Shown piece after piece: positions 30,434-58,862 of a DNA stretch of 64,000 nt. The notes below the pieces were generated by a model. That model was not told the DNA's origin and searched no databases. It saw only the letters and a program-made list of their open reading frames with translations. Source of the stretch: Romanomermis culicivorax (lineage: Eukaryota; Nematoda; Enoplea; Mermithida; Mermithidae); assembly GCA_963922205.1 (NCBI GenBank), contig CAWUHX010000082.1:434001-498000 (forward strand), given 5' to 3'. The translations under genes were made by a program, and so were the position numbers. Each line of letters starts with the position of its first letter. Positions within the stretch are counted from its first letter, which is position 1.

Positions 30434-31828
30434 GATACAAATACACTATTCGAAGAGAATTAGTTCACGTTTCTGCCGAATACAAGTTGGTAATATAGTA
30501 TTCGATGACTCGGCGCGAAGCGTTTTCAGCCCCTGGCCCCAAAATGACTGAAAATCAAAGAAATTTAGTGTTGAACCATTCAGAAATTTTATGCCGATTT
30601 GCACAAACGATCAAAATTTTTTGCGTTAGGTTTTCCAAATTTTTCGTACCAAAAATTATTTTTTGATACAATCATACAAAAAAAACCACTGCGAACTGCC
30701 ATCTCGGGGCAGAAAGCATTGCGGAGCGAGATCTGTCGTCATTCTGATTGGTCGAGAAAATTTATTGATTTCTACAGTTGTTTCAGGCAAATTTTCTGGC
30801 TTGCTCAGACTTAGGCTAAGGTTCACTGTTTTTTTCCACATTTGCACTATAATGTGGAAAAAATTTTTGAGGTCTTTCCACAAATGGGGAAGAAAAATTT
30901 GGGGTTTTCATATTCAAAAGATGCATTTTGGTGCATTTTAGGAGGTGCAAATCTCAAAATTTTCCGGCGCTCCGCGCCGGTTATAACTTTAATAATTATT
31001 ATTATTTATTACCAAGCTTAGGCGCGGCTTTTAGCATGTCCACCTTTACTTACCATTTAATCTTTACTAGTTTTCATAATCTTAAAGGTATTATTTCGTG
31101 TTTAATTGGCAATCTTGAATATTATATCTTTATATTTGATGACGATATCCGCATTTTTTCCTTCATAGATTTTTCGAGAAAGATCAACACGTCAATTTTC
31201 TAAACTTTTTGAAGCGTTTGTTTCTTTCTTAACGTAAATACAATTTAAAAGCTTCATGGAAGTATTTTTGGAAAATTTATACGCTTCTGACTCATAGCTT
31301 TTCGGACAACTTTATGAAAGGTTACGAACAAATAATTGGTTTTAAAATTTTTTGAATGATGAATTCCTAGAAATTACGATTTATATGAAAACAAAATTTA
31401 AATCTAATTTTTCAGATATATGTTCACTGTTCAGAATGATTATCAGAACGCCTTACAAAGCATAAAAAAACTTAAATCAAGTGTTTATGAGCATTTTCAA
31501 GCGAAAAAGAAAACGAGGATTTTAAGACAAAAAAATTTTTCCACGTGTGGAAAAAGAATTTGACCTCTTTCCACATTTGTGGAATAAAGTTCGTGGAAAA
31601 ATAGTGATGAGGTTTAGTCTTAGGTTTAAGCTTAGGCTAGGCTTGGACTCACGGTTAGGAAGGAGTAGACTACAACCTTTCTACCAATCAAATTGAAGGC
31701 ATGAAATTTTTCGACCAACCAAATTGATGAGAGATGTCGCCAGGGTTTTTTTTGCACACAGAAACCAAATTTCGGGCTGTGCAACCAAATTTTTTCTGCC
31801 AAGTTGCACAGTGCATGTGCAACTTTAG

Positions 31829-32173
31829 GCCGGATACGGCGAATATAATATTTTATATTTGCAGTATACTGTTAATAGTGCATGCTATATAAGACCTACT
31901 ATTAGCCGTACGAAAAGTACAGTATATCTCATCTCACTAATTTTTTTATGACATTTCCATCTTGCAGATCAGATTGTACATTTGTCAGCTGTTACCTATT
32001 CAGCCTGGCACACTGCATACAGTTTATTTTTTCATAATTATCCTGAATTGTGTACAAATTTATTAAAATCTATTCGATTTACATGATAAACTGGTCGATA
32101 TCAATATATGAGGAAACTTTTGTGCACAATATAGCTTAATTTTTCGATGATTTTCAGGATGGATTGTTATGTA
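31829..32173. repeat. MULE left terminal inverted repeat
   Basis: 345 bp, complementary to 34673-35017 with a few percent mismatches. Confidence 0.9.
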
Positions 32174-32318
32174 GAAGCCATTGAACTTCATAATTTGCAC
32201 AAAATGCTGTAGCCGAAGATTATTTACCTGTCCACTGCAGATGCTTCGAAAGCTTCAGTAGCTGGTTCGATTTTTGGTTGCTTCCAAGGTCTCGCCAAAG
32301 CCATTGGACGGCTAGAAA

Positions 32319-32868
32319 GTGAAACTTTTCAGTCATTTTCAGTTGAATCCAGTAAACGTTTTCATAACGATGAAAAGAAATTTGTTTTTTTCAAAGCTTG
32401 TTATAGTTTGCAGGAATCGTATTCGTTGTAGGGCAACTGGCATAGGCCTACGACCCAATCAAAGTTATTTCGGAGCTGTGGGGTGTAGCTGTCGTTTAAA
32501 TATTAATGTCAGTAATGCAGAAAATAAGCTAAAAGTCGCCCGCTCGAATTTTAAATATAATCAAGAAGTTTCTGAAGAATTATTGTCTCATTTCCCACAT
32601 AAAAGAAGATTAGACGGAGATGCAAGGGATTTCATTGTAAAAGCAGCCCAGTTGGGAGCATGTAAAATTGATTGCTGAGGAAATTCGCTCCACTGAAGGT
32701 AAACAAGTGACTAATCATGATATTAGAAACATCATATATGCTGCCCGCAGTTCTGAGAAAGCCAACGAAGTTTCCAAAACCATTTATTTTCTTGAAAATA
32801 TGAAAAAGACTGATCCAGGCTGTATCTCAAAGTTATATCAGACCCAAAATCGAATGTTGTGGATATAA
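32319..32868 (+). pseudogene. MULE transposase, N-terminal part (frameshifted)
   Basis: Two overlapping frames, 32319-32678 and 32668-32868, that a +1 shift near 32660 separates. The first carries RPNQSYFGAVGCSCRLN and a basic FPHKRRL, like the DNA-binding/zinc region at the start of ZSWIM3-type MULEs; the second carries KQVTNHDIRNIIYAAR. A TAA at 32866-32868 and a TAG just before the LDGTYRLN catalytic motif (first Asp at 32926) interrupt the reading. Confidence 0.75.
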
Positions 32869-33113
32869 TCTTTTTTCAAACTAGTCTCATGCGTCAATGG
32901 TTTATCGAATTTCCAGAATTAGTTAGATGGAACTTATCGTTTAAACAACATCAACTATGTTCTTTTTTTATTCACTGCACTAGATAAGAATCGTATCAGT
33001 CGCATTGTTGCTGCAGCATTTTTGAGCTCGGAGACTGAATATCTAGTGACATCTTGTTTCAAACAGTTTAAAATCAGTAATCAGGATAGCGTAGACAAAC
33101 TAAAATTGTTGTT

Positions 33114-33929
33114 TTGAACAAAGATTTTGAGTCCATTAAGGCGGCTCAGAATACTTTCCAGAACGCAACTGTTCTACTATGTATGGTTCATGTCGAGCGA
33201 AATTTTAAGAAAATTGTTCGGGAAATGAAGTTTACCCCTAGTGAGTCATGTGAGATGGGTAAGTCTAATTTGACTTTACAGAATATCAAAGAATGTGCAT
33301 TGACGTTGCTGAAAAGACTATTACACGCAAGAAAGTTTGACGTCTTTAATGACAGTTGGACTGAGCTCCTGAATGATAAATTAATCCCAGGTCATTTCAA
33401 AGAAATTTTCACATCTAACTGGATGAGTTGTAAGGAAATGTGGGCTTGTGTCTTTCGGAAAAATCTCACAACTTTTGGAATTAATGATACTAATCAGATT
33501 GAAGACGTAATAAGTCCGTATTCGCGGATGTTGTTATGCGTCGAAAATCTGATAAAATTTATTTCTATGCATACGTTCAATGCAAAGCATCGGAAATACG
33601 TGGAAAAATGTAAAGGCAAATTTATTTCCAACATTCCTTCATTTGAACAAAGAGAATTTCTGATTCAAACATTTCACAGATTTTGCTGGCTTCTAAGCTC
33701 AGTGCAGAATATAATTTGTTTCAGGGAGACCTTCGAAAATTTCAGATCATCAACAATGATGGAGCGACTAGTGTTTCCAAAACGGATTTTGACTCCAAAT
33801 AATACCATTATACAGGATCGCAAATGTTCTTGCGAATTTTTCTGCCATTTTGAGTTGCCTTGTCGTCACATTATGGCTGTTAGAAATTCGAAAAATTTAG
33901 AAATATTTGATTTGAAACTTATTTCATGA
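33114..33929 (+). pseudogene. MULE transposase, catalytic core and SWIM finger
   Basis: 271 codons. NKDFESIKAA at the start holds the second conserved acidic position of the MULE catalytic triad, followed by LLCMVHVERNFKK. The SWIM finger (CxCx..CxH form) is at residues 238-252, ending PCRHIMAVR. The true protein began upstream, across stops. Confidence 0.82.
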
Positions 33930-34187
33930 CGTTTCCAATGGTTTAAATTCGTTACGTCTGTTCCTGATAACTTCAGTCATGATCCATTGTTGGAAAAAAT
34001 TCCCGAAAATTCTATGGTAATAGGTAGTTCAAAAAATAGAATTTTGTCTGTAAATGAAAAATACAACAAAATGTTGAAACTAGCCAAGCGAGTTTGTGAC
34101 GTCTGCAGCAAATTAAGTTTCACAGAATTTTAAAAGATATATGAACAGTTAAAAAAATTTTTCAATAGCCTGAATACATCTGAGCCT

Positions 34188-34679
34188 ATGTCGATGGTTA
34201 TTTCAAAAACTGATGAACTGGTGGAAAAAAGCTTCGATTTGGACACAGCAAATGCTGAAACTGATGTTGGCATGACGAAAACTGGAAGCATCGTGAGCGA
34301 TCTTTTACCATCAGTGTCAAACCACAATGTTGAGACGAGATCTGATGATTTTAGTGAGGCTTCCGAGTTCAAAAATGATCAATACTCATCAGATCAGTTA
34401 CTTTCTTTTAGAAAACAGCGTAAGATCATGGGTAATGTAAAGGGTTTGACAGAGAAGCAAAGGTGTTTTCGTAAAAAGCAAATAAATCAACTTAAACTCT
34501 CTGATGCAGAAGCCAATAGTATTAACTGTGGTGACTTTATTACGGATAATATTTTGAATAAAGTATCGGATTTGATCCAACTATTTTTCGACAGCGATTA
34601 TCCATCTCCACCAACCCAACGTTTGAAAAAACAAATTGGCCGTTTTGTGCAAATTATGAAGTCAATGGCTTGTACATAA
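34188..34679 (+). pseudogene. MULE transposase, C-terminal part
   Basis: 163-codon frame rich in Ser, Asp and Lys (FRKQRKIMGNVKGLTEKQR). Position between the SWIM finger and the right inverted repeat argues that it is the transposase C-terminus; no known domain seen. Confidence 0.55.
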
Positions 34680-35017
34680 CAATCCATCCTGAAAATCATC
34701 GAAAAATTAAGCTATATTGTGCACAAAAGTTTCCTCATATATTGATATCGACCAGTTTATCATGTATATCGAATGGATTTTAATAAATTTGTACACAAAT
34801 TAACATAATTATGAAAATATAAACTGTATGCAATGTGCCAGGCTGAATAGGGAACAGCTGACAAATGTGCAATCTGATCCGCAAGATGGAAATATCAATG
34901 AAAAATTAGTAAGATGAGATATACTGTACTTTTCGTACGGCTAATAGTAGGTCTTATATAGCAGGCACTATTAACAGTATACTGCAAATATAAAATATTA
35001 TATTCGCCGTATCCGGC
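34673..35017. repeat. MULE right terminal inverted repeat
   Basis: 345 bp; the last codons of the downstream open frame (34188-34679) run into it. Confidence 0.9.
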
Positions 35018-35186
35018 TAATAGACACTGCCCTACAGCTCTTTTGAATTGATTAGGTTGCAGGGTTTTCTGTCCGGAGATGCATTTTCATGCGTTCTAAA
35101 AGGGAAGACAGAAAATTTTCCAGCGCTTCGCGCCAGGTTCCAATTCATTTATGATTTTTTATATTATTCTAGTGCGCGGTTAGAAA

Positions 35187-36453: not shown

Positions 36454-38001
36454 TCATGAGCCCCTGGATTTTCGACCTGATCTGGATAGCTGGCATCTTA
36501 AGGGATCCGAAAATGCCAGTTTGGACCATAAATGGGAAGGGAACCGACTTGTAAAAAAATTCCAAATTTTCCAATAAAATTTCTGAACTTTTTCTACCCT
36601 TTGTATTTCACCCATTAAATAAGGATTCCATATAGGACTACCATATTCAAGGATTGGGCGAACATAAGTTTTAAATGCCCTGATTTTTAATTCATTTATA
36701 CTTGAGTTAAAATATTTAAAAATTAGATTTGATACCCTAGAAGCCTTCTTGATCATGTAACCACAGTGCGGAACAAAACTGAGTTTTTCATCAACATAAA
36801 CACCAATACCTTTCATTTCAGTGACAGTATCAAGATCACGTTCACTAATTTTGTACTGATTGGATGGATTATTTTTCCCCAAATGTAACACTGCACATTT
36901 GGACAATGACATACTAAGTTGCCATTCCTCAGACGATTTATAAAAGTTGTTTAAATCGTCCTGCATTAATGCTGAATTGCATGCATCATTGAAAATTTTT
37001 GCATCATCCGCAAATAGATAGAGATCACTTTTAATTATATCACTCAGATCATTTATAAATATTAGGAACAATGTTGAACCTAACACGCTTCCTTGAGGAA
37101 CACCACTAATTATTGAAGTTGGAGCAGAAGTGGCATTACTTAATTTTACACATTGCTTCCTACTTGTTAGAAAGTTGCAAATCCAATTCATTGTGAATTT
37201 ATCAATTGTATATCCTTGTAGTTTTTGTAAGAGCTTTGAATGTGAGACAGTATCAAATGCTTTCTTAAAATCGACATATACAACATTAACAGGAACTTGA
37301 TAATCCAACTTCTTCACCCACTTAGTTTTACATTCGAGAAGTTGTATGACACATGATTTATTCTTTCTGAATCCAAACTGCTTACTACTGAATAAGGCAT
37401 ATCTGTCAAGATGACCTACAATATCCTTATTAATTATTCCTTCCATGATTTTGCATGGTACACTACAAAGTGATATGGGCCTGTTATTTTCAACTTTGCT
37501 ACGGTCCCTTTTTTTCAGGATTGGAACAATGAATGATGTTTTCCATAAATCAGGTAATATGCCAGTCCTATGAGAAATCTCAAAGATAACACTAAGAGGT
37601 TCAGCAAGAACAGGGTGTAACTTTTTCAGAAAGTAGGCGCACAGACCATCAGGTCCAAGAAAAAATGTAGGTTTTAGATTTTTCAGTGCCAACAAAACTT
37701 TCATGAAATCAAATTGAACTGACTTGAGATATTCAAATCCTTTACCAGCAAAAGGAGAACTTTTTCGGTCATCAACAGTAAAGACAGTTGCAAAATATTT
37801 GTTGAAAATATCACATTTGTCGAAGTCACTACTAGCTTCGATATTATGATAGTACAATGTCGGGATCGTTTCTCGCTTTACGGTTTTGCTTTTGACAAAT
37901 TCATAAAACTTTTTTAAGGAGGGATATTTCAATAGAGTTTTCTCTTTCTTAGCATAATGGATATTCATTTCGTGTTTAGGTTTCTTTGAAATTAACTTCA
38001 A
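36454..38001 (-). pseudogene. CR1/Jockey-type LINE reverse transcriptase (5'-truncated)
   Basis: 515 codons. RT motifs in order: FFLGPDGLCAYFLKKL, NNRPISLCSVPCKIME, QFGFRKNKSCVIQLL, VYVDFKKAFDTVSHSKLL, GVPQGSVLGSTLFLIFIND and the catalytic LFADDAKIF, then thumb-region ILEYGSPIWNP and VEKVQK. After this the frame is lost. No endonuclease domain is seen upstream (a trace of open frame extends to about 38040), so the copy is 5'-truncated. Motif style is that of the CR1/L2/Jockey group, not L1 or RTE. Confidence 0.88.
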
Positions 38002-38434
38002 CCTGTTCTTATTTTCAGTATTCTGTTGTTGGCATATATAGTCCAGAATTTACGTTTTCTCAATCTTCTCAAAAATAAAGGTAGTTTCGCCCGTTTAAGG
38101 TAGTTTCTCCCGTTTCTCCCAAATTTTTTTCCTCAAAACACCGAGGAAAAGTTTCTTGTCTTTTTGTGCCAATTAGCACTAATGTCCGCGCACAAAAACG
38201 CTGACAATGAACACTGTTTTTCTTTTTCCTCAAATGGGGGCCCAGGATAAAATTTTGTCCCCATATTCCTTCTACTAGTTTGTTGCTTATGCCCCACTGT
38301 TCAAAATTCCGGCATTTTGGGTTCTTTGCGAATTTTTGGACGAAAATTGACATTTTCTATTCATCTTCACAAATACCATTCTTTCGTTTGATTTTTTCCA
38401 AACATTGTTAACGTAAATTTGGAATATGTAAGAC

Positions 38435-44592: not shown

Positions 44593-45415
44593 GTGAACTC
44601 AAATGGCGATGAAGAAACGGATTATCGAAAGAAAATTAGTAAACTAGAAGAACAAATCCACAAACTTGAGAGGACCGTTGAACAACTCGAAAGACAAGCA
44701 AAATCCAAGGCATTCTGGATCTTTAACTATCCGGTAAGGTATATCTTGAAGAAAGTGTGGGAAAGCCTCAATAGGAGAGGGTATTAATTGGTAGTAGGAG
44801 TAGTTTTGATCTTTGCAAGAGCAGAAATAAAAAATAATCACCTTAACATCAGCAAGCATGAGAAACGAAAACCATGAAATCATCGCTCAATCTAATTGAT
44901 CTGGAGGCTCCATTTAATGTAATCTAAGTGGATATCCATATGAGTCAAAAAATCTTTCATTGGACAGTAAGCAAGCTGACCCTGATGTCAGCACCATCTT
45001 TTTATATGAAACTCATCTCTCATTTGTCTGTCTTTCTTTTATTTTTTCCTTTTTTTCTTTTCCGCTTGATCTGATCCCCATGGATCAGAAGATGAACAAC
45101 GCAAAGAAACGTGAGAAAATTCGCCAATTTTGCCACAAAGGTTTTAATTTACCTAAAGATTGGGCGAAAAATCTCGAAATCCAATGGATCGGATATTATG
45201 AGTCAAAGAGCCCTAGAAATCTGATCAATATTAAAGTTGATTTGATGCGATTAGAAGACAAAGAAACGATTTTAGCCAATGGAAAAAACTTGGCTGAATG
45301 GAACAAATCTCAGAAACTGTCGATTATTGTTGCGCCAGATTTGACCAAACAGCAGAGGGTGAGCCAGAAAGAAAAACGAAAACCAAAGGAAAAAGGAAAA
45401 GAAGGTATTGCATGA
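44593..45415 (+). pseudogene. LINE ORF1-like region (coiled coil and RNA-binding part)
   Basis: 44593-44787 encodes a heptad-like coiled coil (ISKLEEQIHKLERTVEQLER). 45083-45415, within the frame 44960-45415, encodes NNAKKREKIRQF ... NIKVDLMRLEDKETILANGK ... IIVAPDLTKQQR, which resembles the RRM/C-terminal part of L1-type ORF1 proteins (K-x-Ile-Leu, then DLT..R). The two parts are in different frames with about 170 bp of unclear sequence between, so ORF1 is probably broken. ORF1 proteins coat LINE RNA. Confidence 0.6.
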
Positions 45416-45712
45416 TTTTTTCGTTTATTGTTGCCCTATGATACTGATTTTTTTTGGTTTTTTAATTCTTGTTCGTTTTGTTGTTAATTTAAAAGAGCTG
45501 CATGAATTACAATCATCTAGTTTCAAAATAAAGAGGTGCTAGTAGTGCAGTTTCGAGTGCAGTAGTGCACATTTTGACCGCAGTAGTGCAGACCTTTAAA
45601 CTATGATATAAAAGCAAAAAGACAAAAAGACCTTGTAGCCTGTAACAATGGAAGAAAATAAACAGAACACAAGTAATATGATAATGATACTACAATAGTG
45701 GATTTGTTGTGA

Positions 45713-46058
45713 ATGGCTTATAATGTGAGGATACTATCTTTGAATATTAAAGGAGGAAAAAATGAGGTGAAGAGAAGGTCAATATTGAATTATTGTAAGG
45801 AAAATAAGACAGACATAATTTTTTTACAAGAGACACATTTTTCAGCGGAAATAGAAAAACCGCTAGTCCTCTAGTGGGGGGCGGGCCTGCAGAAGAAACA
45901 TCTTTTTTTCTCACATGGTGAAACAAATTCAAGGGGAGTAGCAATTTTACTCAATAACACATTCAATTTTGAAATAGTTGAAATCAACAAAGATGATGAA
46001 GGAAGGTTTCTGATGCTCAAACTAAAAATTGAAGGTACTCTCTTTGTTTTAGTGAATG
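45713..46058 (+). pseudogene. LINE ORF2 endonuclease, 5' part (before the LTR element)
   Basis: Starts with ATG at 45713 and reads RILSLNIKGGKNEVKRR, DIIFLQETHFS (metal-binding Glu in QETH), an in-frame TAG at 45872-45874, then NSRGVAILLNN and LFVLVN. It stops at the LTR element; the last bases AATG are the 4-bp target duplication. Confidence 0.88.
46055..46058. repeat. Left target-site duplication of LTR element
   Basis: AATG, repeated at 55402-55405 directly after the 3' LTR. Discounting one copy keeps the LINE endonuclease frame open. Confidence 0.9.
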
Positions 46059-46962
46059 TGTAACATACCTGCTAAAGCAGTACTGTAAATATGTAGCATA
46101 CTGTATGTGATAGACATTTATTAGATATTATTTTATTTTCGCATTTTATCTTCTCAAGGGTGTCTGAGATTCACACCCAAACATTCCTATAAAATTACGT
46201 GAAGTACTTTATTTTGATCCGTTCACACCCCGGTAGCCCAATTAAGATGCCCCAATTAATTTGCACAAACGGCAGCTGTTCCCCTAGAACCCACACTAAA
46301 CTACACATTCCACAGCTACCGTAATCCCCCATAAAAATCGTAAACAACACCTGCACACAGTAAAATATGTAGAAGCCCCGCCAGACAGTAGTCTCAAGTG
46401 TAACAGTAGCGGCGGCCCCACAAAGCATGTGTATACAGAGAAACTGATACAGGAAGCATGCACAGAAGCACAAAGGTGTGGCTAAGCCCACCGTAGGAAG
46501 CAAGCAAAGCACAGAAAGCATATCAGGAAAGTACCAGGAAAGCGTTAGAAAGGCGTAACTAAGAAAAGCATAAAAAGCGTAGCAGGAAACGACGATTGGC
46601 GGAAGAAGATGGACAGAAGCTCGACCTCCCGCGATGCCCAGGGAGTGGCCAAAAACGTCGTATAAAAGAAGAAGCAAAGCGTGATTTTATTATTCTTGTG
46701 GTTTTACATTTTTTCGACTTCCGCGCTCGCCCCGTCCTTTTTATATATCTGCAAGCGGCCAATTGTACGAAAGCAACTTAAACCGAGGCCCCCGTTCGTA
46801 TTATAAATCGAGACGCGTTTTGTATTGTCGATGTTCAAGCGACCATCGATCATTCGTGTATTTTCGTATTATCTTACTGCCCGCGACTGTCCCGTTATTC
46901 CGTCCCCGCTGTATCGACCGTTGGTTGAAAGTAAAGTACCTCACACAAATCTGGTCGTTACA
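46059..46962 (+). repeat. 5' LTR
   Basis: 904 bp, starts TGTAACATACC and ends GTCGTTACA. Differs from the 3' LTR by about 27 substitutions (eye count), mostly transitions, and one 6-bp indel. The TATA-like box is TATAAAAG at 46661-46668. Confidence 0.95.
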
Positions 46963-46967
46963 TATTT

Positions 46968-46980
46968 TGGTGACAATACC
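46968..46980 (+). other. Primer-binding site (likely)
   Basis: TGGTGACAATACC starts five bases after the 5' LTR. TGG at the start matches the complement of a tRNA CCA end; the particular tRNA was not identified. Confidence 0.55.
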
Positions 46981-47205
46981 ATACCGTTAACCACTGGAAC
47001 TCCCTGCCCCCAATTAGGTGTACTCTTATCCGGGCATTTAGAAGCATTAGATAATACAGTAGTAATCATTTCCTACAGTAAGACAGTATTCATAGAAAGC
47101 AAACTGGAAATCCCCTCCAACGAAACATTAAGCGATACATTTAAATGAATACAGCGTGAAGCAAAAATTGAAGCATTTAAGCAGAAATCCCGACGTAAAC
47201 CAAGA

Positions 47206-48966
47206 ATGACCCACCAAACGCAAGATCATTTAGGAGAAATCGTTAGAGAACAGATAAATGATTTATTTTCAGAACATTTTCGTACCCTACGCACACAATT
47301 GAATCAGAATACATTAAACCCTACCCTAACAGACGATCTAAGAACAGCAAACATTTGTAATAACATGGCAAATAATTTCTACGCGAAACCTACAGTATTC
47401 ACCGGTGGCATGACCCAACATTTTGGTGAATGCAACAAAAGATTAGTACAATTCATGGCACTCCAAGGCATGAAAGGTACAGACGTACAGTTAAAGTTGG
47501 CATGTTTAGAGATTCATTTAGGAGGAGCCGCATTGGCAAAATTCAAAAGTTTAGCAAATTCCGAAAACCCTCCCCACACATACGAGCAGTATAAAGTCGC
47601 ATTACAGGCATTTTTTCCAAACAATAGAGATAATGAGCTACATCAACAATTCTTACGTGAGAGAAAACAAAAGCATTCAGAAACAGTAACTGAATTCTTA
47701 TTTGATCTAGAACATCTCACAACCCTGGCCTACCCTAACTTTAACACAGATGCACGAGAAATGATCATAAAACCCCTCTTTGTAGAAGGCATGCAAAACG
47801 AAATCAGGGAAGCAATTAAGTATAGACAGTTCGCAACTCTAAAAGAAATGTCAGACGAAGCAGCTTACATTGAACAGCAAATCCTTAGAAATGAGTTAAA
47901 GTCCAACGCCCTTCCATTTATACCCCCAAAACCCGAACCCATCTTTTCCCTAACCAGAAATACAGATCAACAGGACCTTTTGCATCAGTTAGAGCAACAA
48001 GTAAAAGATTTACAGTTGCAGATCAAACAAAAACCTCAACCCCCACAACAAAGTAGCTACAACAATTTCAGTAACAATACTTTCAGCAGGAATAATGCTT
48101 ACAGGAACAATACCACCCCTAGGCAACCCACATGCTTCCAGTGTGGACAAATCGGACACGTAACTCGTAATTGTAAATCAGTAGGCACCCGTGAATCATG
48201 TGAAATCTGTTTTCATAATAATCACAGTACGCGTGATTGTAAAAGCCGATGCATCCACTGCTCCCAAACAGGACATAGATCTGATAACTGCCTTCCGAAA
48301 CCCTACTCAAAATTTCAATGTTTTATATGCAAGCAGAGAGGTCATACAAGCAGGTACTGTCCAAATCAGCAGAGTCTTAATATTCAAAATTGCATTGAGT
48401 ACAGGCAACCCCAATCCCTCATGGACATTGATGACCCGGCATTTTACTCAAAATTACCCGCCATAACTAACGGCCCTCAGACTACTTTAGGAACCATTAT
48501 GCCCACTACCCACCGCCGTAGTGACAAATACGTCCTCAACCTGGACGTACCGCATTGGTGCGCCATGTCACCACCCCCCACGCCTGAAGCCGCAATAATC
48601 GAAAAATCCCCACCCACCATCCCCGTAGGCTACAAAATCCCCTGCAAGCAAGACACCACGCCGCCCACCGCCCCCGAAACCCCATCCAAAGCAGGCCGCA
48701 ACTTACTGTCCCTTTTACAGGGCCTGACCCCCGAACCCTACCAATTCCGCCCCCGCCAAACACTATTACCAACCCCCACAAGTAAGCAAGTCCAAACTCC
48801 ATCCCATGACTCAACTTCTAAAGTTTTACAGAATGTTCAGATTGCAAACCGGCCACCCCCCCAGCTCAAAATCGCAAAAGGACAACACCAAAAGCCCCAA
48901 CACCAAACCGACCACAACGAAAACATACAGTGCCCCGCCACCTCCACTAAAACATTCTATTGGCGG
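47206..48966 (+). pseudogene. gag: LTR element gag with four zinc knuckles
   Basis: A retrotransposon capsid region of Ty3/Gypsy type is at about residues 60-230 (KPTVFTGGMTQHF, YEQYKVALQAFFPN, EFLFDLEHLTTLAYP). Four nucleocapsid-type zinc knuckles follow at residues 310-323, 332-345, 349-362 and 372-385. Then comes a long Pro/Thr-rich linker (about 430-585). The same frame is open upstream from 46825 to a TGA at 47146-47148, so the original start could be earlier than the ATG at 47206. The frame runs on without a break into the envelope-like region. Confidence 0.9.
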
Positions 48967-50700
48967 ATGTTTCGTATTTTTCTTTGTATAATAATCCCCA
49001 TATCGTGTAGTGCCCAATTTCAGATGTGTGGAACTTCATTGAGCGGTCACTCAGTCAGCATACCAAAACTTGTATCATGCATGCCCCCTTCCACAGTAGA
49101 CAAACCCGTACAGACATTCAGAAAAATCTATATCCCCTCCACTAAGCCTCACATTACAGATGCATACAAATGCAGTGTTCGCAAACGGAAAATTTGTATT
49201 AATACAGGATTTTTTGGATCAAAAGGTATTGTCTTCGACCAAACCGAAATGCAAAATCTAACCCCGCATGTTTGTAAGGCAATCATTATAGACAAAGAAC
49301 ACAGCAGTCAAAAATTATACGAAACCCAACCAGGATTTTGGTCAACAAACAACTCCCTAAGCGTAGAATACACATGGTGTTGTACAGACCACTGTACCTC
49401 GGTCACTAACGTCATCATAGAAATCGGACAAATAGCATCTTGGAATGGAAAATCTATGACAGGTACATTAGGTGACCTGGGGTCATGCAAACCGACACAT
49501 TGTGTCACAGCCGATGGATCCATTATCTGGAATGAAACAGCATTTGAAAACTTATGCCCCTTTGAATACAAAAATACACATCCAATAAAACTCACGCAAA
49601 CCCACATGATAATAGAAGAGCTACAAGGTGCATTCTCCGTTAAAAACACACTCTTTTCGAACCCCAATTGCCCAGAAATCCAAGACAGCATTCTAATTGA
49701 ACAAGGCATTATTGTACATATAGACAAAAGCACACCACATCGTAACGCATTTTTAACCCCAAAAACCAACGAAACCCATACTACACTATATGATTTTGAT
49801 GATTTTGAACCCATTAATGCGAAACTAAATTATCTAGCAGACAAAATCCAGGAATTCTAAATTCAAAATTTCAAAAACATATGGAGTGAATTATGCAGAC
49901 AGGCACAGCGTCACCTTGATCTCGTATGGCAAATTTTACGCCTTGATGCAACCCTTGGAACGCGTGCATTCCTACAGCGAACCGACATCATAGCAGAATT
50001 CACAGGAGAAGCCCTCACCGTCTGGCCCTGTAAACAAGTAAATGCATCTAAAATCTTTTACAACCACAAAATCAACCAAACATGCTACAAACTTTTACCC
50101 ATTCTCGTAGTAACTGAACTCATGTTTTCAAATCCAGGAGGCAACGATTTGACTCCTTTTTCACAAACAGTTGACTGCCATCATATGCATGTAGCCCTTT
50201 ACAAACAGAATGATACATGGGTCAGTGAAACAGGATCCCCGCATGTCACAAATTTACCCTTAGAAATCGTCTGGAACCAAAATTTCTCCCTTTTCCATTT
50301 CAATACACCCGCCATATTTTATGATCAACTTGCAACTATTTCAACCAACTTACTCTTTTTGAAACAATACATTTACAAAACTCACACACTCGAAAACCTT
50401 GTTAAAAAACTCGTCAATTACACTGCCCAAATGTCCCTCAATTCCGATACAGTTTACAACATGATCTCAGGCACTGGCCAAGCACTCGGAAATACCCTCT
50501 CTGGCGCCGGTCAAGGCATAGAACATGTAATAACTGGTACCACCCAAAGTCTCACAGACGGATTAAACAATTTACTCAAAGGACCCCTGCAAATCATTAT
50601 CAATCTAGCCGTTATAACTGTAGTTATTGCAGACGTCTTTTACTCTTTTCTCATTCTTCGAAAGTATTTCCCTTCTTCTAAGCCTCATGCCACAAATGAA
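48967..50700 (+). pseudogene. env: Envelope-like glycoprotein region between gag and protease (interrupted)
   Basis: Begins at an internal ATG (48967) with a signal-peptide-like hydrophobic stretch (residues 588-605 of the long frame) ending in a small-residue cleavage-like site. A Cys-rich ectodomain of about 520 residues with many N-glycosylation sequons follows, then one strong transmembrane segment (50587-50668) and a short basic tail. An in-frame TAA at 49858-49860 interrupts it; the frame continues unchanged on the other side. The layout recalls the glycoproteins that LTR elements have captured from chuvirus-like mononegaviruses, but that assignment is inference. It is not the errantivirus position, which is after integrase. 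Confidence 0.75.
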
Positions 50701-51621
50701 CATGCATATGAAATACCATCCAACAATCGACGTTTACATGAATCCATTCCCCCATCGTTCGGCCATGCCCTCTCAGAACTAGCTAATCGTCGTGGGGCAC
50801 AAACGCAGCAGAAATACGTCTTTGTCGATATTGATACCCCCCGAACTCCTGCAATCGAACTCATTAATCAAATTCACCAATCTGCATCAAACAAGCCACC
50901 CCAAAATGTACCCGAAAAACATACCCCTCATATTCCAATCACACTCAACGGCAAACTAATTACAAAAGGCATGATTGACACTGGTGCAGTCTACTCCCTC
51001 ATTGATTCACGCATCGCTCAAATCTTGCAGTTAGACACGAAACCCCCGCTAGCCCAAGCAAAAGCAGCAAATAATCTCCCGATTCACTTTGTAGGAACCA
51101 CTTTTGTCACAGTGACAGCCCAAACAATCCAGGAAACAATAATGGTTCATGTCCAAAAAGATTGCACAGCAGACATCCTCCTAGGCAAAAACTTTCTCAG
51201 TCGATTTTCAGAATATACTATCAACAATCAAAAATCTCAGGTCCAATTTGGCAATGTCATACTACCTTGTGATGGCCTAGAATATAGCCCCCTTTCGACT
51301 CATGGTGGAACTTATCTAGAAGAGAAATTAGAATTACCACCCCGTACAGTAACCGAATTCACGGTCTTCTTGCACAAATCGTACCTACAAGTTAAACAGC
51401 TTGAATTAACTCTGAAACCAAAACAGAATCCCAAAGTCCACTTTGCAGCCTGTGTCTCTGAAAATCAAAACAGTCGCATACGCATATCGGTCCTAAACAC
51501 ACAAGACATAGCTCAAATTCTTTACCCCGGAACATGCATTGGTGCAGTCTCATGTTACATTCCAAAACAAAATGCTCCCGCTAACGTAACCCCCTCCAGG
51601 AAACCAGCCCAATGGTTTTGA
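50701..51621 (+). pseudogene. pro: LTR element aspartic protease region
   Basis: Retropepsin-type active site GMIDTGAVYSLID (DTGA, catalytic Asp codon 50977-50979) and the distal DILLGKNFLSRF (a variant of the ILG...L flap-end motif). Same frame as the envelope-like region, ending at TGA 51619-51621. About 70 residues of linker (with HAYEIPSNNRRLHESIPPS) come first. Confidence 0.85.
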
Positions 51622-52310
51622 TACATTCACATGGTTAAAAGAAAATGTTAATTTAACCTCCAGTGACCTCACAGAAGCGGAAAAAAACGCAACTCCTACG
51701 CGCCCTATCGAAGTATCCTACATTATATGCTAAATCCAAAATGGACATAGGTAGAACCACCCTTGTTTCACATACAATTGACACCAATGGCTCCCAACCC
51801 GTACGTAGACAACTTTATCGGACTTCCCCAAAAGAAAAGCAAATCATACAAGCAGAAGTTGAGCAACTCGCAGCAGTAGGTGTAATAAGCCAGAGCAATT
51901 CTCCATGGTGTACCAACACAGTTTTAGTCCCCAAAAAAGGAGGAGGCCATCGTTTATGCATTGATTTTAGAGGCCTCAATAAAGTAACCAAAAAAGATAC
52001 CTACCCTTTGCCCCGCATAGACGAAATTCTAGACACCCTACGTGGAATGAAATATTTTACCTCCCTTGACCAATCCAATGCATATTATTCCATTCCCATA
52101 GCACAAGCAGACAGAGAAAAAACGGCCTTTAATTGCTCAGCCAGCCAGTATCAATTCAACTACCTCCCCTTCGGTCTCATCAATGCCCCAGCCACATTCC
52201 AGAGGTTAATGGATGTCATTCTTTCGGGACTGCAATGGAACACATGCCTTGTATATCTAGACGATGTTTTAGTCTTCGCAGATTCACATGCCCAAATGCT
52301 GGAACATTAA
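51611..52310 (+). pseudogene. pol: LTR element reverse transcriptase, first part
   Basis: RT palm motifs HRLCIDFRGLNKVTKKDTYP, YFTSLDQSNAYYSIPI, LPFGLINAPATFQRLMD and the catalytic YLDD. A short coding segment (51611-51680) precedes it in another frame (FDTFTWLKENVNLTSSDL); the frame changes at a run of seven A (51681-51687). A TAA at 52308-52310 ends the frame just after YLDD. Confidence 0.9.
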
Positions 52311-52858
52311 GACACTATTCTTGCCGGATTCTCACACGCAGGCCTTAAGCTAAACATACAAAAATGCAAATTTTGCCAGCCCCAAGTCCAATACTTAGGC
52401 CACGTGATTTCTCAGCAAGGCATTTCACCAGATCCCCATAAGGTTAAGGCCATCTATGACATACCCACACCCAAAAGCTCAAAAGAAGTTAAGTCATTCA
52501 TTGGCCTACCCTCGTATTATCCTAGATTCATCCCAAATTGCTCCCAAGTTTCTAGCCCCCTCACAGCGCTACTCAAAAAGAATTCAGAATTTTCCTGGGG
52601 CCCTGAACAGCAAAACGCATTCACTAAACTCAAAGAATTGTTAATTCATGCCCCAATACGGCAGCATCCGGATTTCACAAAACCGTTTATTCTGCAAACC
52701 GACGCCTCAAAACTCGGAATCGGCGCCATTCTCAGTCAGCTAGATAGTAAAGGTCAAGATCGTCCCATTGCCTTTGGGAGCCGCACATTGAAACCTCGAG
52801 AACGCAACTACCCGATAACTGAGTTGGAAACCCTTGCAGTAGTAGAGTTTGTCGCCCC
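52311..52858 (+). pseudogene. pol: LTR element RT end and RNase H start
   Basis: Same frame as the previous piece after the TAA: LKLNIQKCKFCQPQVQYLGH, VISQQGISPDPHKVKAI, then RNase H motifs LQTDASKLGIGAILSQ (first Asp) and NYPITELETLAVV (Glu). A frame change at the C run 52855-52858 follows. Confidence 0.9.
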
Positions 52859-54052
52859 TACCTTTTCCAGCAACATGTTATTGTACACACTGACCACACA
52901 GCAGTTCAGGCAGTCTTACAAAAGGAAAACCCGTCCCCTCGCATTGCCCATTGGGGATTAGCCCTCAGCGGTATTCAACTCAACATTCAACCTAAGAAAG
53001 GCACTGCTAACCGCAATGCAGATGCAGTCTCTCGATTCCCCTCACATACAGCAAAGCAATCCTTAGACATTGAGCGACTCGAAACCCGCCCCGAAATATC
53101 AACAATCAATTCTGTTCTTGAGGCCGAAGCAACTGAACAAGAAGAGCAACAGAAAAATTTCACCCAACTCCAACGCACTGATCCAACTGTCAAAAGCATT
53201 TTAGCAAAAATCGCCCAAAAACACCCCCTTACCCTGATCAAATTCGCAGTGCATCAAAACATCCTCTTTCATATAGTCGACAAACAGGCAAAACAATACA
53301 TTCCCAAGTCACAAGTCCAGCATCTCATAACCTCACATCATGACAGCAAATTCACAGGTCATTTTGCTGCCCGAAAAACTTTACACTTGCTCAGACAAAA
53401 ATATTTTTGGCCCCAAATGAGCCCTGATATCAAACGTTACTGCAAAACTTGCCACCCATGCCAGACACAGAAAGCCCTCAGGCACAAAGTGCATGCAAAT
53501 CTGGTACCAATTCAGCCGACTGGCCCATTCGATAGAGTCAGTGTTGATTGCATGGGACCGTTACCCCTCACTGAAGACGGCAACCGATTTATTGTCGTTT
53601 TCATCGATTATTTCACAAAGTATGTAGAGGCATTCCCGACCCCTGACATCACTGCAGCCACTATTGCCAAGTTATTCGTAACCAAAATTGTTTGCCGTCA
53701 TGGGTCCCCAAAAATCATCCATTGTGATCGTGGCTCCGATTTTGTATCCGATCTCTTCTCACGGATAACTAGTTTATGCAATACTCAGAAAATTCATACC
53801 ACCCCATACCATCTCATTGCCAATGGGGAAGTTGAGCATTGCAACCAAACTTTAGCCACCCGTATCTGCATGTACATCAATTCAAATCGCACTGATTGGG
53901 ATACTTATCTACCCTATGCCGTTTTTTCGATCAACATACACAAAAATGATAGCACCTCGTATCCCCCATTTGAATTACTACACAGTAGGCAAGCAAATCT
54001 GCCATCAGACGCAGCTTTAAATTTTTCCCCATGTCCTACATGGTTGATTTAG
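52859..54052 (+). pseudogene. pol: LTR element RNase H end and integrase
   Basis: Open in one frame from the RNase H tail (VYTDHTAV-like IVHTDHTAVQAVL, with the Asp) through the integrase zinc domain (HHDSKFTGHFAA ... CKTCHPCQ) to the DDE core: VDCMGPLPL, HCDRGSDFVS and NGEVEHCNQTL supply D, D and E. Ends by frame change near 54030. Confidence 0.9.
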
Positions 54053-54473
54053 ACGATTACGCCCTTCATGTACAATCGCATTTTACAGCAGCACTCCCAA
54101 CCGTGCAGAAAAGTTTACAAAAAGCCCAAGACCACTATACCCGTCAGTATAACAAGCATGCTCAGAACATACATTACAAGGCAGGTGACCTTATTCTTTA
54201 CAAAAATCATTCGTGTAAACAAGGGCTGACTCCCAAATTGTAAAAAAATCATTCGTGTAAACAAGGGCTGACTCGTGTAAACAAGGGCTGACTCCCAAAG
54301 ACTCCAAAACGGGCCCTATACAGTTACAAATTTCATGTACCCCAACGTTACACTTAAACACCCCCATAAGAATATTACATTTACAGTGCATGTAAATGAG
54401 ACAACCCCTTTCTACCCTTGGAAAGCAACTATCGAATCTACCCCCACCCTTCCTCAACCTCGAAAGCCTTGAA
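54031..54473 (+). pseudogene. pol: LTR element integrase C-terminal domain (duplicated and broken)
   Basis: 54031-54243 encodes a basic helix and the KAGDLILYKN strand of the integrase C-terminal domain. A local repeat of AATCATTCGTGTAAACAAGG units (54205-54300) introduces stops. Beyond it NGPYTVTNFMYPNVTL and a short tail ending at TGA 54471-54473 continue the domain in another frame. Confidence 0.75.
54205..54300. repeat. Short tandem duplication in integrase tail
   Basis: Two and a half copies of a unit containing TCGTGTAAACAAGGGCTGAC, the likely cause of the loss of frame. Confidence 0.85.
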
Positions 54474-54490
54474 CGAGGACTTTCAACTCC

Positions 54491-54503
54491 GGAAGGAGGG
54501 AAA
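54491..54503 (+). other. Polypurine tract
   Basis: GGAAGGAGGGAAA abuts the 3' LTR and would prime plus-strand DNA synthesis. Confidence 0.9.
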
Positions 54504-55401
54504 TGTAACGTACCTGCTAAAGCAGTACTGTAAATATGTAGCATACTGTATGTGATAGACATTTATTAGATATTATTTTATTTTCGCATTTTATCGTCTC
54601 AAGGGTGTCTGGGATTCACACCCAAACATTCCTATAAAATTACGTGAAGTACTTTATTTTGATCCGTTCACACCCCGGTAGCCCAATTAAGATGCCCCAA
54701 TTAATTTGCACAAACGGCAGCTGTTCCCCTAGAACCCACACTAAACTACACATTCCACAGCTACTGTAATCCCCCGTAAAAATCGTAAACAACACCTGCA
54801 CACAGTAAAATATGTAGAAGCCCTGCCAGACAGTAGTCTCAAGTGTAACGGTAGCGGTGGCCCCACAAAACATGTGTATACAGAGAAACTGATACAGGAA
54901 GCATGCACAGAAGCACAAAGGTGTGGCTAAGCCCACTGTAGGAAGCAAGCAAAGCACAGAAAGCATACAGTACCAGGAAAGCGTTAGAAAGGCGTAACTA
55001 AGAAAAGCATAAAAAGCGTAGCAGGAAACGAGGATTGGCGGGAGAAGATGGACAGAAGCTCGACCTCCCGCAACGCCCAGGGAGTGGCCAAAAACGTCGT
55101 ATAAAAGAAGAAGCAAAGCGTGATTTTATTATTCTTGTGGTTTTACATTTTTTCGACTTCCCCACTCGCCCCATCCTTTTTATATATTTGCAAGCGGCCA
55201 ATTGTACGAAAGCAACTTAAACCGAGGCCCCCGTTCATATTATAAATCGAGACGCGTTTTGTATTGTCGACGTTCAAGCGACCGTCGATCATTCGTGTAT
55301 TTTCGTATTATCGTACCACCCGCGCCCGTCCCGTTATTCCGTCCCCGCTGTTTCGACCGTTGGTTGAAAGTAAAGTACCTCACACAAATCTGGTCGTTAC
55401 A
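54504..55401 (+). repeat. 3' LTR
   Basis: 898 bp, starts TGTAACGTACC, ends GTCGTTACA; TATAAAAG at 55100-55107. Lacks six bases near 54966 present in the 5' copy. Confidence 0.95.
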
Positions 55402-56345
55402 AATGTCTACACCCCCATACGAGAAAAAGAACAGTTCAAATTTTGGGATGAGATATACAGAAGTCTTAAAAACATAAATATTGAAGATTCCCCTGTAATA
55501 ATTGGAGGGGACCTGAATGTAGTGATGGACACCAAAAAAGACAAACTTGGAGGTAACATTTCATATAACAAAAAGATGTATGTGCATAAACTCAAAGAGC
55601 ACATGAATTCACTGCAAATATCAGATGCCTATAGATGGAAAAATCCAAATCAAAAAAGATATACCTGGAGTCAAATTAAACCACATCTGGTTAAATGTAG
55701 ACTAGATTATTTCCTAATTTCAGATGCATTAATCAATGAAACTGTCACATGTGATATAATTCCAGGACTTCAGTCAGATCATAGTGCTATTTTTATAAAT
55801 ATCATTGGTAAGCTATACAAAAAAGCTGGACCAGGATATTGGCATTTCAATAATTCCTTACTTGAAGACGAAAACTTTAACTCAATCATTATGAGAATTA
55901 TAGAAGAAACAAATATAGAGTGTAAAGAGCAAAACTTAGATCCTTCAGCAGCATGGGAATACTTAAAGTATAAAATACGATGGAATACAATGAAGTACTC
56001 AAAAGAGAGAGCAAAATCGAGGAGAAACCATGAGGCAGAACTTAGATTGAAACTCGAAACATTTGAAACCACATCGGAAAATTCAGTTGATAAGTATGAT
56101 GAGTATCTACAGATCAAGGACAAACTCCAAAAAGAGATGGGGGAAAAAGCAAAATTTATGATTGAAAGAGCAAAAACAAGATGGTATTTGTATGGAGAGA
56201 AACCTAACAAATATTTTCTGAACATGGAGAAAAGAAATTATAGCAAGAAAACAATTGTTAAACTTAAATCTGATGAAGGCATTGAACTGGATAGATCAGA
56301 AGATATACTCAAAGAAACTTTAACTATTTCAGCAAGATATATAAG
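55402..56345 (+). pseudogene. LINE ORF2 endonuclease, 3' part, and linker to RT
   Basis: Resumes right after the 3' LTR in the frame that would follow 46058 once one target copy and the LTR element are discounted: VYTPIREKEQFKFW, IIGGDLNVVMD (GDLN), RRLDYFLIS-like CRLDYFLISDAL and GLQSDHSAIFIN (catalytic SDH). A long Lys/Glu-rich linker follows. The frame shifts at about 56336-56344. Confidence 0.9.
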
Positions 56346-58862
56346 GGAAAAGACCTGCCATCAAATCTATCCAACCTTCTAGATGATGAAGATATAAAAG
56401 CATTGCCAAAACTATCAGAAGAACAAAAAAGTGAATTGGAAAAAGAGCTAACTTTGGAAGAATATAAGAAAGCTTTGAACAGCATGAAAAGCAATAAGTC
56501 ATCTGGAGATGATGGCCTCACAGTCGGGTTTTATAAAAAATATTGGGATATTTTAGCAAACCAGTTGAAGGAGTGCTATGAATTTTTGTTCCATAATGAT
56601 CAACTTACTGGATCTCAAAGAAGAAGTATGATAACTTTAATTCCTAAACCAAAAAAAGATTTGGAGAACTTGGCAAATTGGCGACCTATATCACTAATGA
56701 ATGTGGACTATAAAATATTGGCCAAAACCTTAGCAGAAGGATTAAAAAAGAATTTAAAACACATTATACATGAAGATCAGAAAGGCTTTGTACCATGTAG
56801 ATATATTGGTGAGAATATAAGGTATTTGCTAGACTTAATCGAATACTATGAGGACAGAGATGATAGTGGATATCTAATATCACTAGATATAGAAAAAGCC
56901 TTTGACTCCTTAAATAGACAATTTATGCTTAACACACTAGAAGCTTTTAACTTAGGAAAAAAATATATAACATGGATGAAAGCTTTGTATGAAAATTCAC
57001 AAGCTGTAGTTATAAATGCTGGTTTGACAACTAAACGCTTTGAACTACGTTGTGGTATCAGGCAAGGGTGCCCAATATCGCCTTATCTTTTTATCTGTGC
57101 CATGGAAATTATGGCGCATATGCTAAGAAACTCCTTGAGATTTTCAGGACTCCTAGTAAATGATCAAGTACATAAAGTTTGCATGTATGCTGATGATACT
57201 ACAATATTAGCAAGAAACAAAGAAGATTATAGTGAAGCACTAAAATTAATTCAAAAATTCACATCCCACTCTGGTTTGAAAATCAATGTAAATAAAATAC
57301 AAGTATTAGGAATAGGGAAAAATAAAACAAAAAAAGGTAAATTGAATGACAGTGAAATAGTAAATAGTGTGAAAATACTAGGCATCACATTCTCATATAA
57401 TAAAGAAGAAAGGTACAAGGAAAACTTTCATGATAAGTTTGAGAAATGCAAGGAACAGTGTAAATTGTGGCAATCAAGACACCTGACCATCTATGGGAAT
57501 ATTGCAGTATGGAACTACATAATTATTCCAAAAATTTTGTACAGTCTGACAAACTTGCCTGTTGACAAAAAAACTATCACTAAACTAAAAACCCTATTAA
57601 AGAATTTTCTGTGGAATGGACATAAACCAAAAATAAAACATGGTGTCCTAATACAAGATTATGATAAAGGTGGAATAAAGGCCCCAGATATTGAAATTGT
57701 GATACAACAGATGAAAGCGAAATGGCTATTAAGATTGCTAGAACCTGGAAAATGGAACAACTCGGCCCTTCAACCCCTAGATAAAATAGGTGGACTAGGA
57801 AATTTATTAGACGATAATTTCTCCCTAAAAACACTAGGTTTACACATAAAGTCCTTCTATGGAGAGATTTTGCAGTTAATAGCATTAATGCCTACAACTA
57901 ATATTAATATTACAACTCCGATGGATGTAATTGCACAAAGAATAAATAATAATAGATTTATCTTAAGTAACAAAACATCCATATATTTAGACAACCTCAG
58001 AGAAACAAAATTCAATTATCTCCTCAACTGGTTCAAGGAGGACTGGAATTTTAAAAGTTGGAAAGATTTAAAAGGGGAACTATGTAACATAAAATGGTTT
58101 GACTATGCAAGAATAATCCATTCCATTCCTAGATCCTGGAAAGCTATAATTAAAGAATCTGATCTGCTAAAAAGGGAGATTAATTTCGAACCAGTCATTT
58201 TTGATAAAAAAAAAACAGATAAAAAATCTAAAAAAATATCTGATAAAACAGAAAGAATGTATACCAACAGGACAAAAAAATGGAAAGCAAAACTAGGATT
58301 AAATGACGAGGACTTCACTAAATCATGGAAAACGCTATACAAATTAGGTATCAATAACAAGAGTAAGGAAATACAATATAAAGTTCTACATAATATCATA
58401 ATCACCCCACACTTATTAGTGAAATATAGAATTAAAGAATCCAGTGGTTGCTTTCAGTGTAATGGAGACGATGATATTTCACATACATTTCTGGAATGTC
58501 AACAAGTTAAATCTCTGTGGAAAGAGTTGGAACATATAATGAATAAAAATGGTGATAAAAATATGAAGTTTACTCATAAAGAAATAATATTTGGATATGA
58601 ACTAGAGGTAAAAACAGAACATAATAAAATAATTAATATTATAATCATTTTATCAAAAACCTTCATTTATAGGAAAAGAAGAGCAGAGGAAGACCTCAAT
58701 CTAACAGCCTTTTTGAATTTTGCAATGAGTGAAGCTAACACAATGAAATGTAACAAAGAAATGGAAAATGTGTTAAAAAGAAACAAAACCTTCATTTTTA
58801 AGAAATGGAATAACTTCAAATCAATAGGCACCTTCTCAAAAATACAAAAAAACTTGACATAA
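56346..58862 (+). pseudogene. LINE ORF2 reverse transcriptase and C-terminal region
   Basis: About 835 codons in one frame. RT motifs: SSGDDGLTVGFYKKYW, LITLIPKPKKD-type MITLIPKPKKD, NWRPISLMNVDYKILAK, QKGFVPCRYIGENI, LISLDIEKAFDSLNR, LRCGIRQGCPISPYLF and the catalytic CMYADDTTIL. The C-terminal CFQC(x)8HTFLEC is the Cys/His motif of L1-type elements. The stop at 58860-58862 is 70 bp before AATAAA. Confidence 0.93.

Follow-up and report, generated by a model that had tools for sequence, protein, structure and literature searches.

A predicted viral fusion glycoprotein encoded between gag and protease in a Ty3/Gypsy-type element family of the nematode Romanomermis culicivorax

Retroviruses and env-carrying retroelements are usually described with the envelope gene (env) in last place, often expressed from spliced RNA, and the errantivirus-type env-carrying Gypsy elements (Metaviridae) join a viral fusion glycoprotein to a Gypsy-type pol. 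Type III glycoproteins in Gypsy elements have been reported before, according to the accessible text of PMC13172572, which cites Chary and Hayashi 2025, and the portion of PMC10084718 at hand sees no clear evidence for the capture of a chuvirus-type glycoprotein by Gypsy. According to the available part of PMC7642597, the BEL/Pao element Anakin carries a chuvirus glycoprotein, and in the BEL elements Roo, Tas and Cer-7 a glycoprotein lies downstream of the polyprotein. Here we analysed a 64,000-nucleotide stretch of Romanomermis culicivorax (the window; contig CAWUHX010000082.1, positions 434,001 to 498,000, in a 359-Mb assembly that also served for the genome-wide copy searches, where this contig is numbered C82), and found a Ty3/Gypsy-type long terminal repeat (LTR) element with a predicted fusion glycoprotein. 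Its env differs from that of the errantivirus-type Gypsy elements in standing between gag and protease, all within a single frame; Anakin captured the same broad type of viral glycoprotein, so far as its description was accessible, but belongs to the BEL/Pao superfamily. The literature covered, with the survey of Chary and Hayashi 2025 lying outside it, held no report of an env between gag and protease or pol, and this gene order appears undescribed, although type III envelopes in Gypsy are already known.

The env segment of the window copy lies at 48967-50700 on the plus strand, as do all parts of the element, after a gag (47206..48360) with a capsid domain (Retrotrans_gag/Ty3_capsid) and four CCHC zinc knuckles (48133-48360), and a proline-rich linker (48361..48966); it leads through a cytoplasmic tail or linker (50659..50886), in frame past 50700, into an aspartyl protease (50935..51204, PF13975, E=6.6e-9) with a DTGA motif at 50971-50988. 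An earlier note, made from the letters alone, had read between the knuckles and this protease a signal-like start, an ectodomain rich in Cys and sequons and one transmembrane segment, all of which are present; its reading of the segment as glycoprotein-coding held. The note had not seen an in-frame TAA (49858..49860) that breaks env in the window copy, where 48967-50700 is therefore not one open frame. Env opens with a hydrophobic signal-like segment (48967..49014, MFRIFLCIIIPISCSA), whose FLCII core recurs in 39 of 39 other copies read in the assembly, followed by ectodomain part 1 (49015..49857), with a tblastn match in 39/39 copies, part 2 (49861..50586) and a transmembrane segment (50587..50658). 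The ectodomain holds 16 Cys and 9 sequons, 12 and 4 of them before the TAA and 4 and 5 after it, and these 16 Cys and 9 sequons are invariant in the 16 copies that are fully open. In a hydropathy scan of one of the other copies only two peaks rose above the threshold, the signal-like and the transmembrane segments.

Its profile matches assign the segment to the Monjiviricetes_fusion family (PF24664) of viral fusion glycoproteins and to no non-envelope protein, in agreement with the envelope identity proposed in the earlier note. The window env was searched as two halves on either side of the TAA, of which the second matched PF24664 with 53.6 bits (E=1.2e-14, cut-off 27) and the first alone had no Pfam match. 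Seven natural env proteins scored 67-72 bits against the same cut-off, those from copies with an open env reached E-values of about 1e-18 to 4e-20, and the matches fell within profile positions 200 to 500 of 653; four open-env copies also gave weak herpesvirus gB matches, and one a Borna G (BDV_G) match. The F-type (baculovirus-like) Env family gave no Pfam match at E≤1, PF24664 being found instead, and NCBIfam gave no useful match. Among sequences of solved structures neither the second half nor a natural env found a match, and the first half yielded one non-significant match, Glycoprotein G1 (E=0.11). For a homologue from outside this genome (P0001, not the window protein), the predicted model was weak, with a mean predicted local distance difference test score (pLDDT) of 42; with this low-confidence model, the 50 PDB matches listed by Foldseek were all herpesvirus gB (best E=1.0e-12, but with TM-scores of 0.17-0.33, the target-normalised ones being about 0.3), and the 50 viral matches listed were mostly chuvirus, rhabdovirus-like, nyavirus and herpesvirus gB glycoproteins. 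The env product is probably a class III fusion protein, its fold being predicted. It shares PF24664 and the weak BDV_G and gB matches with the chuvirus and bornavirus glycoproteins and herpesvirus gB, but in those RNA or DNA viruses the glycoprotein has a gene to itself.

The gene order is a property of a whole element family. Of 1158 first-look candidates for an env DNA query, 40 were scored as matches, the window copy included, and the 39 others were 94-95% identical to it over nearly the full length. When 5.7 kb (gag-env-protease-reverse transcriptase (RT)) was read around each of these 39, located on many contigs, the order capsid, nucleocapsid, linker, env halves, protease and RT was observed in every one, with a single uninterrupted frame across the whole piece in 16 and stops or frame shifts in 23; the 39 are mutually 88-99.8% alike (median 96.3%). 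Copies found by an env query cannot by themselves reveal env-less ones, and searches with gag and RT are the fairer test. The best 150 of 3218 gag candidates and the best 150 of 7223 RT candidates were scored, both lists holding only the closest matches (94-100% identity), and 84 of the best 150 RT matches, the window copy included, had a gag within 8 kb. All 84 linked pairs were spaced by 4373-4451 bp, so no linked pair lacks an env-sized sequence, although env-less relatives more distant than these matches are not excluded. Thus the conservation of the order, for which the earlier note had looked to further copies in the assembly, was found and copies without the segment were not seen. Of the best 150 RT matches, 59 stand within an open frame of at least 2400 aa, most commonly of 2486 aa, the length expected of the whole gag-env-pro-pol frame. 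A matching 5′ LTR was found at the corresponding place in 20 of 20 other copies checked, in four of them partially or in pieces, and in two copies tested for age the LTR pairs were 99.55-99.56% identical, from which we conclude that these two inserted recently. The family is multi-copy and recently active.

Some copies lie head to tail at a spacing of 8.37-8.42 kb (C180:404-17640, C26:1369857-1379952, C2:2952066-2961096, C122:531827-540862, C149:528164-537207 and C25:197813-206684), which suggests arrays sharing LTRs, formed either by recombination or through the integration of one-LTR circles.

Purifying selection acts on env much as it does on gag and protease. The ratio of non-synonymous to synonymous differences (pN/pS) was calculated from the 16 open copies, an open-only sampling that tilts the values somewhat low, and was 0.056 (0.032-0.088) in the env ectodomain, compared with 0.097 in gag, 0.055 in the protease and 0.029 in part of the RT. 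The transmembrane segment with the tail gave 0.119; the linker between nucleocapsid and env is less constrained (0.345), the signal segment gave 0.244 (0.083-0.762), and 100-codon windows rose up to 0.76 where the linker end and the signal lie.

The same arrangement recurs in diverged subfamilies. Among 2320 candidates in the R. culicivorax assembly, 68 scored above the PF24664 cut-off, while none did in 14 control genomes, and four loci (L068-L071) with differing profile matches were chosen and read. L068 and L071 count as one subfamily because their translations are nearly identical, and L069 and L070 as two more; their env is 55% (L068), 42% (L069) and 36% (L070) identical to that of the window family, and 15 Cys columns are invariant across the env of all four subfamilies. 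At least one CCHC knuckle stands upstream of env at all four loci, PF24664 was matched in all three env proteins scanned (L068, L069 and L070, with L071 outside the scan), and a protease was detected downstream of env by tblastn in L068, L069 and L071 and as a weak Pfam match (E=0.0057) with a DSG motif in L070, whose gag Pfam did not recognise. This order, common to diverged subfamilies, is therefore neither a recent nor a single insertion. The frame from gag to protease is open in L068 only, L069, L070 and L071 each having one in-frame stop, which in L070 and L071 falls between knuckles and env. The protease active-site triplet of L068 and L071 is DCG rather than the usual DTG or DSG. A motif PPS[FL]G.AL.ELAN, between transmembrane segment and protease, is common to L068, L071 and the window family, and is possibly a cleavage or assembly site in the Env tail.

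Judged from gene order and frame, env was probably captured between nucleocapsid and protease and is probably made within one Gag-Env-Pro-Pol polyprotein. A Ty3/Gypsy-type element would have gained a chuvirus/mononegavirus-type fusion glycoprotein at this point and kept it in the gag-pol frame through several subfamilies, so that Env would be synthesised inside the polyprotein. Translation of the Gag part would take place in the cytosol; the hydrophobic segment that follows it would serve as an internal signal sequence, the ectodomain would enter the lumen of the endoplasmic reticulum, and the single transmembrane segment would act as stop-transfer, leaving protease, RT, RNase H and integrase to be made in the cytosol beside the membrane. 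Gag, Env and Pol could then be freed by signal peptidase in the lumen and by the element's own protease in the cytosol; we infer this topology and these cleavages, and likewise any function in a particle or in infection. Flavivirus-type polyproteins run from capsid through internal signal, envelope and transmembrane segment to the enzymes, and the topology proposed here is alike, as an analogy only, with an unrelated virus. That an old lineage arrived independently at such a single membrane-threaded polyprotein, providing equal Env, Gag and Pol at the membrane without splicing or frameshifting, is put forward tentatively, the case for it being nearly balanced by the case against. With an env inside the gag-pol frame, strongly selected and accompanied by at least 150 close RT matches, this would, if true, be another route to a potentially enveloped retroelement, and the polyprotein makes a clear, testable prediction of topology.

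The translation start bears on this proposal from both sides. No stop codon separates gag from env or env from protease in any of the 16 open copies, and an ATG at the signal start is absent in 10 of the 39 copies (nine TTG, one GTG), including four of those open throughout; L068 and L069 likewise have no Met immediately ahead of the signal segment, and L070 has one. No dedicated env ATG is kept at the signal, while the hydrophobic core persists in 39 of 39 copies, and an internal signal sequence within a polyprotein is the simplest reading. Several observations weigh the other way. An ATG precedes the signal segment in 29 of the 39 copies and in the window copy, TTG or GTG could serve as weak env starts, and the copies without the ATG are ungrouped in gag, env and protease-RT trees and so not shown to form one lineage. 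The stops in L069, L070 and L071 mean that Gag fusion may not be universal, and viruses do not usually make a membrane-spanning Env at 1:1 with Gag and Pol. Splice-site scans also contributed: acceptor-like sites exceeded those of codon shuffles in L068 (5 versus 1.83) and L069 (3 versus 0.96), and in L070 a strong donor (7.61 bits) lies in the gag linker and a strong acceptor (8.99 bits) within the signal region. Because of these acceptors, the L070 pair and the low power of the donor test, we slightly lowered the probability given to the polyprotein.

A splicing-based origin of Env is the alternative that survives best, and we regard it as rather unlikely. Splicing of an upstream exon to a site just 5′ of the signal would produce a subgenomic mRNA for Env, or env would be an optional in-frame intron whose removal gives Gag-Pol, and the mid-frame position would be genomic only. 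Insect endogenous retroviruses typically make Env from spliced RNA, and one subclade splices from within gag, as stated in the accessible part of PMC12992720, so that spliced env RNA would be normal by the standard of insect relatives; it would also account for a dispensable ATG at the signal. Candidate donors exist, namely a weak one in the linker at codon 596 (mean 3.06 bits, reaching at least 3 bits in 12 of the 16 open copies) and one of 5.89 bits in the 5′ LTR of the window copy. Against this, the sole donor site of at least 5.5 bits was reached in two of the 16 open copies, a weak argument as a shuffle expects 0.2-0.3 per copy; the linker just 5′ of the signal holds no acceptor of at least 3 bits in at least 12 of the 16 copies, and no acceptor at that place is common to the other subfamilies. 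By this crude score, applied to the 5′ leader in the window copy only, no donor-acceptor pair is common to the subfamilies, the donor test having low power. Moreover, 5′ splicing alone would leave Env joined to Pro-Pol, as the frame of the 16 open copies continues uninterrupted from env into protease.

An active depletion of donor sites was also considered, with one conserved site of at least 3 bits and none of at least 5.5 bits, compared with expectations of 7.97 and 1.74 derived from the window; this claim was dropped because a codon-matched shuffle expects only about 2.6 and 0.2-0.3, respectively.

It is very improbable that the glycoprotein is a functionless passenger or fossil hitch-hiking in the element, since its pN/pS of 0.056 is like that of gag and protease and 15 Cys columns are invariant over four subfamilies, even though env and pol are disrupted in the window copy and 23 of the 39 other copies carry stops or shifts. 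An assembly artefact, or a glycoprotein insertion confined to one Gypsy copy, is refuted to the point of negligible probability by the 39/39 copies on many contigs, the 84/84 linked spacings and the three other subfamilies.

The remainder of the window copy supports, by sequence comparison, assignment to the Ty3/Gypsy-type LTR retroelements, as the earlier note had proposed. The element (46059-55401) comprises two LTRs of about 900 bp with TG..CA ends, the 5′ LTR (46059..46962, TGTAA...TTACA) being 96.35% identical to the 3′ LTR (54504..55401), flanked by a 4-bp AATG target-site duplication (46055..46058 and 55402..55405), in the order LTR-gag-env-protease-RT-RNaseH-integrase-LTR. The Pfam domains from 5′ to 3′ are Gag (PF03732, zf-CCHC), PF24664, protease PF13975, RT, RNase H, H2C2 and integrase core. 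Downstream of the protease lie the RT (51657..52409, PF00078), an RNase H of one domain type (52596..52969, PF17919 and PF17917), an integrase (53300..54325) with H2C2, rve core and a GPY/F motif at 54311, and, as read by eye, a polypurine tract (54491..54503). This pol order carries a Ty3-like RT by both Pfam and comparison with solved structures, whose two best relatives were 4ol8, which we take to be the Ty3 RT/RNase H, and 7q5b, named Transposon Ty3-G Gag-Pol polyprotein. RT and integrase are thus Gypsy-type, unlike the BEL/Pao pol of Anakin, and env stands between CCHC and protease and not downstream of integrase as in errantiviruses; in the window copy the stretch from integrase to the 3′ LTR contains no frame of env size. 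Lokiretroviruses have an Env like Mononegavirales fusion glycoproteins and a dual RNase H and are sister to retroviruses, as far as the available portion of PMC9040795 describes them. The present element has a similar Env type but is set apart from that partial description, as the dual RNase H (tether plus new RNase H) of Retroviridae and lokiretroviruses is not seen in the window copy: the pieces into which this copy is broken matched only PF17919/PF17917, with no match to the second RNase H family, PF00075, at E≤1. With its TAA in env and its pol divided among several frames, the window copy is a fossil.

Relatives of this env outside the genome were few. Protein database searches with single env halves gave no match at E≤1e-3, and a profile of the four subfamilies matched four proteins among 4623 candidates. 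P0001, 36% identical and encoded on a 6995-bp public contig, continues after env in frame into a DSG motif and an RT start, as read by eye, with a Pfam protease match of E=0.1 only and no RT match downstream of env, and probably represents a second instance of the env-protease-RT order. P0002 starts with a weak DUF5641 match (E=0.015), a domain that is presumably the end of the BEL/Pao integrase, so on this weak match a related env may follow the integrase in a BEL-type element, and the glycoprotein family may move between retroelement lineages. Scans of viral contigs gave no confirmed env relative, and bacterial and archaeal genome contigs and plasmids gave none. P0004 is a related env fragment in a gammaproteobacterial metagenome bin, probably eukaryotic contamination.

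Further features of the window were noted. Both LTRs of the window copy contain a minus-strand open frame of 163 and 161 aa (46195-46686 and 54640-55125, respectively), and env likewise holds minus-strand frames. The provirus sits within the endonuclease frame of a non-LTR element, L1-like by eye (endonuclease, RT, zf-RVT), which it splits into 44918-46058 and 55406-58862 and whose endonuclease frame continues, again by eye, across the insertion. At 31825-35020, inverted repeats of 380 bp (94.7% identity) flank frames at 33090-34679 that resemble by eye a MULE/SWIM-type DNA transposon, and on the minus strand at 36454-38049 a 531-aa frame resembles by eye a second non-LTR reverse transcriptase.
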